From contig JAIMAN010000013.1 in NCBI GenBank assembly GCA_023511915.1, forward strand, positions 1 to 51,363: a stretch of 51,363 nucleotides of DNA, in the 5' to 3' direction. This document shows positions 31,492 to 45,627 of this stretch, piece after piece. The notes below the pieces were generated by a model. That model ran no database searches and had not been told where the DNA came from. It saw nothing but the letters and a program-made list of their open reading frames with translations. Made by a program: the position numbers and the translations under genes. Every line of letters begins with the position of its first letter. The stretch's first letter is position 1. Source of the stretch: Armatimonadota bacterium (GTDB taxonomy: Bacteria; Armatimonadota; Fimbriimonadia; Fimbriimonadales; GBS-DC).

Positions 31492-31623
31492 GTAGGGGCA
31501 GACCTTCGTGTCTGCCCCGCTGCCCCGCGCAAACAACCGTAGGGGCAGACCCCCGTGCCTGCCCTGCTTTGTGCCTGCCCCGAATGCGCGACAATGGGGG
31601 CAACCACACAGGGTTGCCCCTAC
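31492..31623. repeat. Cluster of hairpin repeats with GTAGGGGC ends
   Basis: Three imperfect copies occur between the convergent flotillin and CARF-HEPN genes. The first is a perfect 9-bp stem, GGGGCAGAC (31495-31503) with GTCTGCCCC (31510-31518); the second (about 31540-31565) is decayed; the third pairs GGGGCAACC with GGTTGCCCC (about 31597-31620). Related copies lie at 34813-34838 and, interrupted, at 43839-44075. They may double as terminators. Confidence 0.75.
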
Positions 31624-34782: not shown

Positions 34783-34958
34783 AGACCTATCGCCGCGCTG
34801 TGAGCGAGGTATGTAGGGGCGCACAGCGGTGCGCCCTGCAGTTCCCCCTCCCCCACTTTGCGGGCGAGGGGAGCTGCGCGCCATCCCCTCTGGAGTGCTG
34901 AAGCGCCAGCTTCAGCGCACCGCGGAAGCTCCGCTTCCGCACTCCATAAGCATCCTTA
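34783..34958. repeat. Gene-free stretch with two hairpin repeats
   Basis: No gene is seen. A GTAGGGGC-type hairpin lies at 34817-34836 (GGGCGCAC / GTGCGCCC, AGCG loop). A two-lobed structure at 34892-34945 has outer arms GGAGTGC / GCACTCC, with inner stems GCTGAAGC / GCTTCAGC and GCGGAAGC / GCTTCCGC; the second lobe is the hairpin type seen at 23278-23303. They may terminate the PhyH transcript. Confidence 0.75.
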
Positions 34959-35128
34959 TACCAATCGCCGAGCCAGAGTTCATAACTGCCCCCCTTAAGT
35001 TTCCCCCCGCATCGCGAGGGGAACCAAGCCGCGCGCCCATTCAGTTCCCCCTGCGAGCAGGGGGAACCTTAAGGAGGGGGTCTTCACTCTCACTTGTTTT
35101 TTTGCGAACTATGGCTGCGCGGTTAGTA
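34959..35128. mobile_element. MITE-like element, copy 1 (decayed right end)
   Basis: About 170 bp, starting TACCAATCG and ending near CGGTTAGTA, a damaged match to the expected CGATTGGTA. Inside are GTTCCCCCTGCGAGCAGGGG-type hairpins and the run AGGAGGGGGTCTTCA, shared with copy 2 at 43855-44061. It has no coding capacity. Its right end contains the stop codon of xseB, so the insertion may have set the C-terminus of that gene. Confidence 0.6.
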
Positions 35129-35374
35129 AGTGCCTATGGAGTCGTTGCACGGCTCGACAATCACGCTGCCGTCGCTGGCTTGGCGAATGGCAGTGATGCG
35201 CTGCTCGGCGTCCGCAAGGTACTGCTCGCAGTATAAGCGTAGGCGTTGTCCCTCCTCGTAGAGGCGTACCGTCTCATCGAGGGGCAGCTCGCCCGACTCC
35301 AGCGTGCGCACAATCGTTTCCAGGCGCGTCATCGCCTGCTCGAAAGTCATCGGCTCATTCTGTGCGTTCGTCAT
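35123..35374 (-). CDS. xseB: Exodeoxyribonuclease VII small subunit
   Basis: 83 residues. MTFEQAMTRLETIVRTLESG, ELPLDETVRLYEEGQRL and LYCEQYLADAEQRI are the two-helix signature of XseB, which assembles on XseA to degrade single-stranded DNA. The ATG at 35374 overlaps the xseA end by 20 bp. The last codons and stop coincide with the right end of a MITE-like element. Confidence 0.93.
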   Translation of the reverse strand: MTNAQNEPMTFEQAMTRLETIVRTLESGELPLDETVRLYEEGQRLRLYCEQYLADAEQRITAIRQASDGSVIVEPCNDSIGTY

Positions 35375-43236: not shown

Positions 43237-43842
43237 ATGAAAACTCTCTTCGGATGGCTACTGATGATCGGATGCGTGCTGACCGCGCACGCACAAGCAT
43301 TTGGCGTCGTGGACTACGAGCGCGTGATTAACGAATCGACCTTTGTGAAGACCAGCTTGGAACGGCTGCAGGCGCTGGAGACGCGCTATCGCGGCGTGCT
43401 ACAGACCCTACAGGAGAACATCGTGCTGACCAACGAAGAGCGTCAGGAGCTGGCGAATTTACTGCTGGCAGAAAACCTTAACGACGAGCAGCGCAAGCGC
43501 GTCGACCAACTCACACAGGCAGCACGGCAACGCGCGGGCGAACTGCAGCAGCTCCGCCAGAAACCGCAACCCTCAGAGACCGAGAAAGCCGCGTTGGAGC
43601 GGTTCACCCAAATGGAGGCGGTCGGACGCGAAGCGATTCAGAGCCTCGCCCAGCAACTCAGCCAGCAACTGGAGCAGCAACTCCAGCAGAGCCGCGAGCA
43701 GGTGCGTCAAGCCGTGCGCGAGACCATCGCACAAGTCGCTAAAGAGAAGCGGCTGTCCCTCGTCTTCAGCACGGAAGCCGTCCTCTACGCCGAGAACGAC
43801 ATCACCAACGATGTCATCAAGCGTCTGAACGAGCGCAAGTAG
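43237..43842 (+). CDS. skp: Skp/OmpH-family periplasmic chaperone
   Basis: 201 residues. A signal peptide (KTLFGWLLMIGCVLTAHAQA) leads to FGVVDYERVINEST, the Skp N-terminal strand, then a long Gln/Glu/Arg coiled coil (about 38-170) and the closing strand RLSLVFSTEAVLYAENDIT. It holds unfolded outer-membrane proteins for BamA, encoded 38 bp upstream. The TAG stop is part of a GTAGGGGC hairpin repeat. Confidence 0.88.
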   Translation: MKTLFGWLLMIGCVLTAHAQAFGVVDYERVINESTFVKTSLERLQALETRYRGVLQTLQENIVLTNEERQELANLLLAENLNDEQRKRVDQLTQAARQRAGELQQLRQKPQPSETEKAALERFTQMEAVGREAIQSLAQQLSQQLEQQLQQSREQVRQAVRETIAQVAKEKRLSLVFSTEAVLYAENDITNDVIKRLNERK

Positions 43843-44075
43843 GGGCAGACCTAATACCAACCGCGTGGGCGGAGTTTACAATTGCCCCCCTCCTGCAGGT
43901 TCCCCCCGCTTCGCGAGGGGAACCGAGAACGGGGCGCATGGGCGGTCTCCCCGCTTCGCGAGGGGAGCCGCGCACGGGTTCGGTTCCCCCTGCGAGCAGG
44001 GGGAACCGAAGGAGGGGGTCTTCAATCTCGTTTTTTTGTAAACTGTGTCCCCCGATTGGTATAAGTGTCTGCCCC
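43839..44075. repeat. GTAGGGGC hairpin repeat split by an insertion
   Basis: The left arm GTAGGGGCAGACC (43839-43851) and right arm GTGTCTGCCCC (44065-44075) match the intact hairpin at 31492-31518. Here 213 bp separate them, occupied by the MITE-like element and its TAA flanks. Confidence 0.7.
43855..44061. mobile_element. MITE-like element, copy 2 (intact ends)
   Basis: 207 bp bounded by TACCAACCG and CGATTGGTA, flanked on both sides by TAA (43852-43854, 44062-44064), a likely target duplication. Subterminal GTTTACAA / TTGTAAAC also pair. Inside are three CG-rich hairpins of the CCCCGCTTCGCGAGGGG / CCCCCTGCGAGCAGGGGG type and AGGAGGGGGTCTTCA shared with copy 1. It has one more internal unit than copy 1 and no transposase gene. 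Confidence 0.65.
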
Positions 44076-44151
44076 ATTCGGGAGCTGAAATCACACCGCA
44101 AACGCGCTTGTCTGCAGGAAACACCCATCCCGCAAGGAACTGATTCGCGCG

Positions 44152-45627
44152 ATGTACCTGTTAGGCGTGGATGTGGGCACTTCGGGCGTGAAGGCGCTGC
44201 TGATTGACCCGTCGGGCGCGGTGGTCGCCAGCGCGAGCGAGTCATATCCGCTTCATACGCCACGCCCGCTGTGGGCGGAGCAGAACCCCGACGACTGGTG
44301 GCACGGAACCTGCACGGCGATACGGCGCGTGCTGGAGCAATCGGGGATTTCTGCCAGCGAGGTGCGCGGCGTCGGCTTAAGCGGGCAGATGCACGGCTCG
44401 GTCTTCCTGGACGAGCGCGGCGAGTCGATACGCCCCGCGCTGCTATGGTGCGACCAGCGCACCGCCGATGAGTGCGCATGGATTACCGAGCGCGTCGGAC
44501 AGGAGACCATCCTGCAGACGACGCTCAACCCCGTGCTGACGGGCTTTCAGGCGGGCAAGATTATCTGGCTGCGCCGCCACGAGCCTGAAAACTATGCCCG
44601 CATCCGACAGGTGCTGCTGCCGAAGGACTTCATCCGCTATCGGCTCACGGGCAAGTCGGCGACGGAGGTCTCGGATGCGTCGGGCACTGCACTGTTCGAT
44701 GTGCCGCGCCGCGACTGGGCGTATGACATGCTGGACACGCTGGAGTTGCCGCGCGAATGGTTCCCCAAAGCCTACGAGTCGCCAGAGATTACAGGTCGGA
44801 TTACGGCGCAGGCGGCGCAGGCGACAGGCTTGGCGGAGGGCACGCCTGTGGTGGGTGGCGCGGGCGACCAAGCGGCGGGCGCGGTGGGCGTCGGTGTCGT
44901 GCAAGCGGGGCGCGCCTCCGTGTCGGTGGGCACCAGCGGCGTGGTGTTCGCGCACCTGCAGCAGCCGCAGGTAGACCCCCAGTACCGCACGCACACTTTC
45001 TGTCATGCTATGCCGGGCGCGTGGCATGTGATGGGCGTGATGCTGATGGCGGGCGGCGCGCTGCAGTGGTATCGCGAGACCTTCGCGCCCGACGCGCCGT
45101 TCGATACGCTGGTGGGCGAGGCGGATGGGGTTCCTGCAGGCGCGGAGGGGCTACTGTTCGCGCCGTATCTGTCGGGCGAGCGCACGCCGTACCCTGACCC
45201 GCAGGCGCGCGGGGCATTTGTGGGGCTGACGCTGGCGCACACCCACGCGCATACAACCCGCGCCGTGCTGGAAGGCGTGGCGTTCGGGCTGCGCGACTCG
45301 CTGGAGATCCTGCGGGCGATGGGCGTCTCGCTGCACGAGTTGCGTATCACAGGCGGCGGCGCGAAAAGCCCGCTCTGGCGGCAAATCCTCGCCAGCGTGT
45401 TCGGGCAGCCCGTGCACACCTTGCAGGCGGAAGAGGGTCCCGCCTACGGCGTCGCGCTACTGGCAGGGGTGGGCGTCGGCGTGTGGGGCTCCGTGCCCGA
45501 AGCGTGCGCGGCGACCGTCCAACTCGCCGACACGACCGCGCCCAACCCCGACGACCAAGCGGTCTACGAGCAACTCTACCCCCGCTATCGGCAACTGTAC
45601 CCCGCATTGCAACCGTTTTGGGCGTAG
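44152..45627 (+). CDS. xylB: Xylulokinase
   Basis: 491 residues of the FGGY kinase family. YLLGVDVGTSGVKALLIDPS is the ATP phosphate loop; EQNPDDWWHGTCTAIR, GLSGQMHGSVFLD (xylulose-contact region) and WCDQRTADEC are typical of XylB; GGAGDQAAGAVGVGV and ELRITGGGAKSPLWRQILAS are the second lobe signatures. It phosphorylates D-xylulose. No xylose isomerase or transporter is adjacent. The start is ATG at 44152 with AAGGAA upstream. Confidence 0.93.
   Translation: MYLLGVDVGTSGVKALLIDPSGAVVASASESYPLHTPRPLWAEQNPDDWWHGTCTAIRRVLEQSGISASEVRGVGLSGQMHGSVFLDERGESIRPALLWCDQRTADECAWITERVGQETILQTTLNPVLTGFQAGKIIWLRRHEPENYARIRQVLLPKDFIRYRLTGKSATEVSDASGTALFDVPRRDWAYDMLDTLELPREWFPKAYESPEITGRITAQAAQATGLAEGTPVVGGAGDQAAGAVGVGVVQAGRASVSVGTSGVVFAHLQQPQVDPQYRTHTFCHAMPGAWHVMGVMLMAGGALQWYRETFAPDAPFDTLVGEADGVPAGAEGLLFAPYLSGERTPYPDPQARGAFVGLTLAHTHAHTTRAVLEGVAFGLRDSLEILRAMGVSLHELRITGGGAKSPLWRQILASVFGQPVHTLQAEEGPAYGVALLAGVGVGVWGSVPEACAATVQLADTTAPNPDDQAVYEQLYPRYRQLYPALQPFWA

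Follow-up and report, generated by a model that had tools for sequence, protein, structure and literature searches.

Insertion sequences of the ISL2, IS1031, and IS427 groups of the IS5 superfamily generate a 3-bp target duplication of the form TNA. Other described repeats close to the present locus are the bacterial type II MITEs, for example, the Correia element, Chunjie, and QMITE2 (reviewed in PMC10969869), and the REPINs and GTAG REPs (PMC3116915, PMC3733652). In the window, by which we mean the whole analyzed stretch of 51,363 nucleotides from an Armatimonadota bacterium, a 207-bp element (positions 43855-44061) starts with TACCAACCG, finishes with CGATTGGTA, and splits a hairpin repeat. 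This element is very probably a non-autonomous DNA transposon, i.e., a MITE, belonging to a family for which we found no description, in Fimbriimonadales (Armatimonadota). Its parts and its surroundings are listed in Table 1.

Table 1. Coordinates of the element, its target repeat, and neighboring features in the window
Feature	Position	Strand	Basis
Intact hairpin repeat GTAGGGGCAGACCTTCGTGTCTGCCCC, empty-site equivalent, paralogous copy	31492..31518	+	
Further, less regular copy of the GTAG-tagged hairpin repeat	31539..31564	+	
Second MITE copy, 170 bp, both TIRs recognizable, flanks TTA / AGT	34959..35128	+	
Upstream gene, OmpH/Skp-like	43237..43842	+	PF03938
Left half of split GTAG-tagged hairpin repeat (REP-like), GTAGGGGCAGACC	43839..43851	+	Sequence
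Target-site duplication TAA, left copy	43852..43854	+	Sequence; flank agreement across copies
Left terminal inverted repeat TACCAACCGCGTGGGCGGAGTTTACAA	43855..43881	+	Aligned ends
Core, REPIN-like repeat between CCCCCCTCC and GGAGGGGGT, approximate borders	43885..44020	+	Core-only copies elsewhere
Hairpin 1 GGTTCCCCCCGCTTCGCGAGGGGAACC	43898..43924	+	
Hairpin 1b TCTCCCCGCTTCGCGAGGGGAGCC, approximate boundaries	43946..43969	+	
Hairpin 2 TTCGGTTCCCCCTGCGAGCAGGGGGAACCGAA	43979..44010	+	
Right terminal inverted repeat, minus-strand reading TACCAATCGGGGGACACAGTTTACAA	44036..44061	-	
Target-site duplication TAA, right copy	44062..44064	+	Sequence
Right half of split hairpin repeat GTGTCTGCCCC	44065..44075	+	Sequence, fold of joined flanks
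Downstream gene, FGGY carbohydrate kinase	44152..45627	+	PF00370, PF02782

The first-pass annotation had described a hairpin repeat that is intact at one place in the window and split at another by a 207-bp element with TAA on both flanks, and the sequence confirmed this description. When the flanks of the split repeat were joined on one TAA, the length and the predicted stem were identical to those of the intact repeat (-17.7 kcal/mol each), with the loop CTAAGT in the rejoined repeat versus CTTCGT in the intact one. The boundaries proposed from this before/after comparison therefore hold: the joined flanks restore the hairpin, and the TAA duplication is supported by many copies and by a second before/after comparison (locus L102), in which a 223-bp MITE is nested, at TTA, in the end of a 172-bp-type MITE. 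The empty-site equivalent in the window is a paralogous repeat and not the orthologous site; the sequence expected at a true empty site across 43839-44075 would be GTAGGGGCAGACCTAAGTGTCTGCCCC. The left half of the split repeat, GTAGGGGCAGACC, occurred in the window three times exactly and once with one mismatch, against 0.05 expected, and within the window the repeat has the properties of a GTAG REP, namely, a palindrome of 20-40 bp with GTAG at one end and several copies. The 207-bp element landed in the loop of this GTAG-type REP hairpin, at its TAA. The presence of RAYT-like genes in the own genome of the window and in its relatives suits this reading of the target, and no regular GTAG hairpin was seen beside the better-scoring RAYT-like gene. 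A general preference for hairpin targets was rejected after the flanks had been joined at all element pairs, since the REP loop was a single case and not a rule.

The GTAG of the split repeat overlaps the TAG stop codon of the upstream OmpH-like gene, and the end of this gene, AAGTAG, was also found in relatives. Among the named relatives that have the element, the nearest is KatS3mg018, a complete genome of Fimbriimonadales (Armatimonadota). In it, the homologues of the ompH-like gene and of the FGGY kinase gene do not adjoin each other but lie at 2.227 and 1.785 Mb, approximately 440 kb apart, and KatS3mg018 therefore offers no orthologous empty site. The cluster of REP and MITE sequences at 43842-44142 is therefore located at a synteny breakpoint.

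Inverted ends of the sequence TACCAAYCG had been noted earlier, and this motif was present three times in the window versus 0.27 expected, a number reached in 0 of 100 shuffles. However, the 9-bp tip is only the outermost part of a terminal inverted repeat (TIR) of approximately 27 bp; in the window copy, about 27 positions match between one end and the other, with one gap (a one-base indel). The alignment of exact ends gave the consensus TACCAAYCG, a variable middle, and RAGTTYAYAA, and TNA stood directly outside 24 of the 26 exact ends. Neither of the two outcomes that the first-pass annotation had named as refuting its reading was observed: copies elsewhere terminate at the same base as the window element, with TNA outside, and the same ends were found at dozens of loci. 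The own genome has 34 matches to the pattern TACCAAYYG-N9-AGTTY and KatS3mg018 has 40, against none to the reversed pattern used as a control; in each of 11 other congeners, there were 0-1 matches. When 84,980 species genomes were scanned, a set that may omit records close to the own genome, KatS3mg018 and Armatimonadetes bacterium DC were the only ones with multiple copies of the TIR end; in the latter, three of four loci hold paired elements flanked by TTA/TTA or TAA/TAA. Lone pattern matches in Bacteroidota, Pelagibacteraceae, Paenibacillus, and one viral contig had no partner end and were taken as chance. Phage and plasmid collections yielded no matches to the element, and the TIR tip TACCAA was not recognized as that of a named IS.

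The own genome consists of 2.73 Mb in 122 contigs. A BLAST search with the element returned 99 matching pieces from it, and these, merged with the TIR-pattern matches, represent 57 places holding the element or its core; this number is probably a lower bound because several of the places sit at contig ends. Using an ungapped TIR model, 56 loci were read, and two ends were assigned to 17, one end to 25, and no end to 14; the 17 are likewise a lower bound, as the window copy itself was scored as one-ended owing to the indel at its right end. The copies are short (element sizes of 135-207 bp), non-coding, and multicopy, and they share TIRs with constant ends and a target duplication of fixed length (3 bp, TNA), all of which are properties of MITEs. 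TNA was found on both sides in 31 of 41 non-redundant element pairs (pairs of 300 bp or less), and the middle base was equal in 24 of these 31 (0.35 expected, p = 1.4e-6; a first count had given 27 of 35). Agreement so far over chance demonstrates a 3-bp TNA target duplication and speaks against a duplication of TA only, whereas the disagreement in the remaining 7 of 31 pairs indicates that some copies have decayed or recombined.

The second copy in the window had been reported to have a decayed right end. This is only partly correct: its right TIR, TACTAACCGCGCAGCCATAGTTCGCAA, is recognizable, and it is the matching flank that has been lost. Dense small palindromes surround this copy at 34880-35140 (GGAGTGCTGAAG..., GCGGAAGCTCCGCTTCCGC, and, on both sides, ACTCCATA ... 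TATGGAGT). At L094:1049-1946 in KatS3mg018, MITEs of the 220-223-bp type form a head-to-tail row of four, with one TTA common to neighbors. One copy of the TACCAA-ended family contains a nested MITE of a different kind, whose TIR is CTTAAAGGGGTAGGTTTTTT; in KatS3mg018 and bacterium DC, CTTAAAGGGGTAGGTTTTTT also bounds DDE_Tnp_1 transposase frames, of 392 and 400 codons, respectively, and a parent is therefore at hand for that family (L141:2150-2400, L202, L204, and L205). Several TACCAA-ended copies (L132:2285, L134:2376, and L140:2600) are interrupted by a MITE-like element of a third kind, one end of which is near TGATAAGGGTAC and which carries the hairpins CCCTCACCCC and GGAGTGCGGAAG.

The interior of the element is a separate repeat family, a point that the first-pass annotation had missed. 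In most copies, the core consists of two GGTTCCCC hairpins in inverted orientation with a short spacer. The window copy has three hairpins, of which hairpin 1b is an extra, diverged duplicate of hairpin 1 that is missing from most copies. Single-strand DNA folding gave z = -8.1. Core-only loci with sharp edges and no recognizable TIRs were found in the own genome (L227, L233, L235, L248, L250, L252, L266, and L268), and such copies end sharply at CCCCCTCC/GGAGGGGG. In the congener G001, the core forms tandem arrays with a spacing of approximately 105 bp and without TIRs (L058 and L063); the loops in these arrays differ from those of the own genome, but the stems are kept. The core was also found in the congeners G009 and G012, and a pattern scan of G001, G009, and G012 did not find the TIRs, apart from one match in G001. 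Pairing is kept in the upper stem of hairpin 2 although its sequence varies among species: the own genome has CTGC/GCAG, G001 and G009 have CTAC/GTAG, and G012 has CTT/AAG. Conversely, the same TIRs in KatS3mg018 enclose at least two other cores, in elements of approximately 172 and 223 bp, in addition to a few GGTTCCCC cores. The core-only copies without TIRs and the occurrence of the same TIRs around other cores show that shell and core are distributed separately. The core occurs as a unit of two inverted REP-like hairpins, including in core-only copies and arrays, as a REPIN does; a GTAG foot or an association with RAYT genes was not found for it, and we therefore call it REPIN-like only.

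The element has no coding capacity, in agreement with the earlier remark that it contains no transposase, and its dependence on a transposase elsewhere is a reasonable expectation. However, the genome search for a transposase with matching inverted repeats, which had been suggested as a check, found none: searches with PF13359, PF01609, and PF13340 did not detect a gene flanked by these TIRs. PF13359 (DDE_Tnp_4) was absent from all 13 genomes of the genus, and the TIRs flanked none of the PF01609 (DDE_Tnp_1) and PF13340 (DUF4096) genes that the own genome, KatS3mg018, and bacterium DC contain; IS5-type genes are present in the genomes examined, in surroundings other than these TIRs. Long TIR pairs proved to be other IS elements nested in MITEs. 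Among the candidates inspected near lone TIRs, L117 (1825 bp) and L112 (1431 bp) were unrelated IS genes nested in MITEs, and at L043, a DDE_Tnp_1 IS that has a TIR of its own had inserted in the arm of a MITE. At L138:2090-2385, a 92-codon frame (protein P0001) directly adjoins a lone TIR. P0001 had no usable identification in Pfam, NCBIfam, PDB, plasmids, or 113 genomes of the order, in which two other genomes (L223 and L224) matched it only weakly, and it may be what is left of the missing transposase. The parent element may be lost from the sampled genomes. Since no transposase with these TIRs was found, we infer the mobility of the element as a historical one.

Because RAYT-like genes occur in all four genomes examined and the core resembles a REP doublet, the element might also be regarded as a repeat of the REPIN/REP type moved by RAYT (Y1 tyrosine transposase), its outer TACCAA ends being part of a longer palindrome. 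This is very unlikely given that the core can be separated from the outer ends, as seen from the core-only copies and from the unrelated cores within the TIRs of KatS3mg018, and that the RAYT loci carry neither GGTTCCCC repeats nor TIR-like ends. Moreover, a 3-bp target duplication such as that observed is typical for DDE elements and not for Y1 transposition; for the TIR shell, movement by RAYT is already largely refuted, and the core might be moved in this way. The target duplication also bears on an origin from an IS630/Tc1-mariner-type element, which would duplicate TA and for which TNA would be a target preference only. Although the element starts with TA and P0001 gives, by eye, the impression of a slight likeness to the IS630 DDE domain, such an origin is improbable: the flanks share the middle base of TNA far more often than by chance, which is unexpected for a TA-only duplication, and P0001 is unmatched in Pfam and NCBIfam, its only relatives in the order being two weak ones.

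A structured RNA or terminator repeat kept for its function, and not a transposon, would fit the strong fold and the variation of the hairpin 2 upper stem with pairing kept. It would not account for constant ends, TNA duplication, and insertion within other repeats, and the element had no Rfam match and no terminator-like site on the gene strand; we consider there to be little chance that this explanation is correct, although the core hairpins may serve a function after insertion.

For the MITE favored here, the trans mover is most likely an IS5-type DDE transposase, this superfamily being the one that the TNA target signature suits best. The transposase, supplied in trans, would bind the TIRs and excise the element, which would then be joined at TNA with a 3-base stagger. 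Either the TIR element would have taken up the two-hairpin REPIN-like repeat or the repeat would have inserted in the TIR element, the composite being amplified afterwards; we infer both this composite history of shell and core and the order of events. More broadly, the TIR shell might repeatedly have picked up whatever hairpin repeats were plentiful in its host (three or more core types in KatS3mg018 and the GGTTCCCC core in the own genome), so that TIR/DDE and REPIN-like systems spread each other as a composite, a scenario that we put forward only tentatively and that we think rather doubtful.

No paper on MITEs of this lineage was found, and the present analysis provides clean boundaries, a TNA target rule, and a copy inventory for it. 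A bacterial MITE can be composite, with an independently spreading hairpin repeat as its middle. Since core and shell differ in host range, repeat annotation by similarity only is misleading, and since several copies sit at contig ends, the family probably fragments assemblies too.

Compared with known systems, the family resembles type II MITEs in size, TIRs of 20-30 bp, target duplication, high copy number, lack of coding capacity, and the many decayed copies without ends, but it differs from them in its 3-bp TNA duplication, its TIR sequence, which was not recognized, its interior, which is an independent repeat, and its autonomous partner, which was not found. The 3-bp TNA duplication is shared with the ISL2, IS1031, and IS427 groups of the IS5 superfamily; in contrast to these groups, no transposase with such ends was found here, and we therefore did not file the family, whose parent was not found, under IS5. 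The core is like REPINs in having two inverted hairpins with a short spacer between them, and the split target repeat begins with GTAG as GTAG REPs do, whereas the core has no GTAG foot and was not found beside RAYT genes, and TIRs and a target duplication set the MITE shell apart. The element is thus of an ordinary kind and represents a new MITE family, and its composite structure is the noteworthy point.
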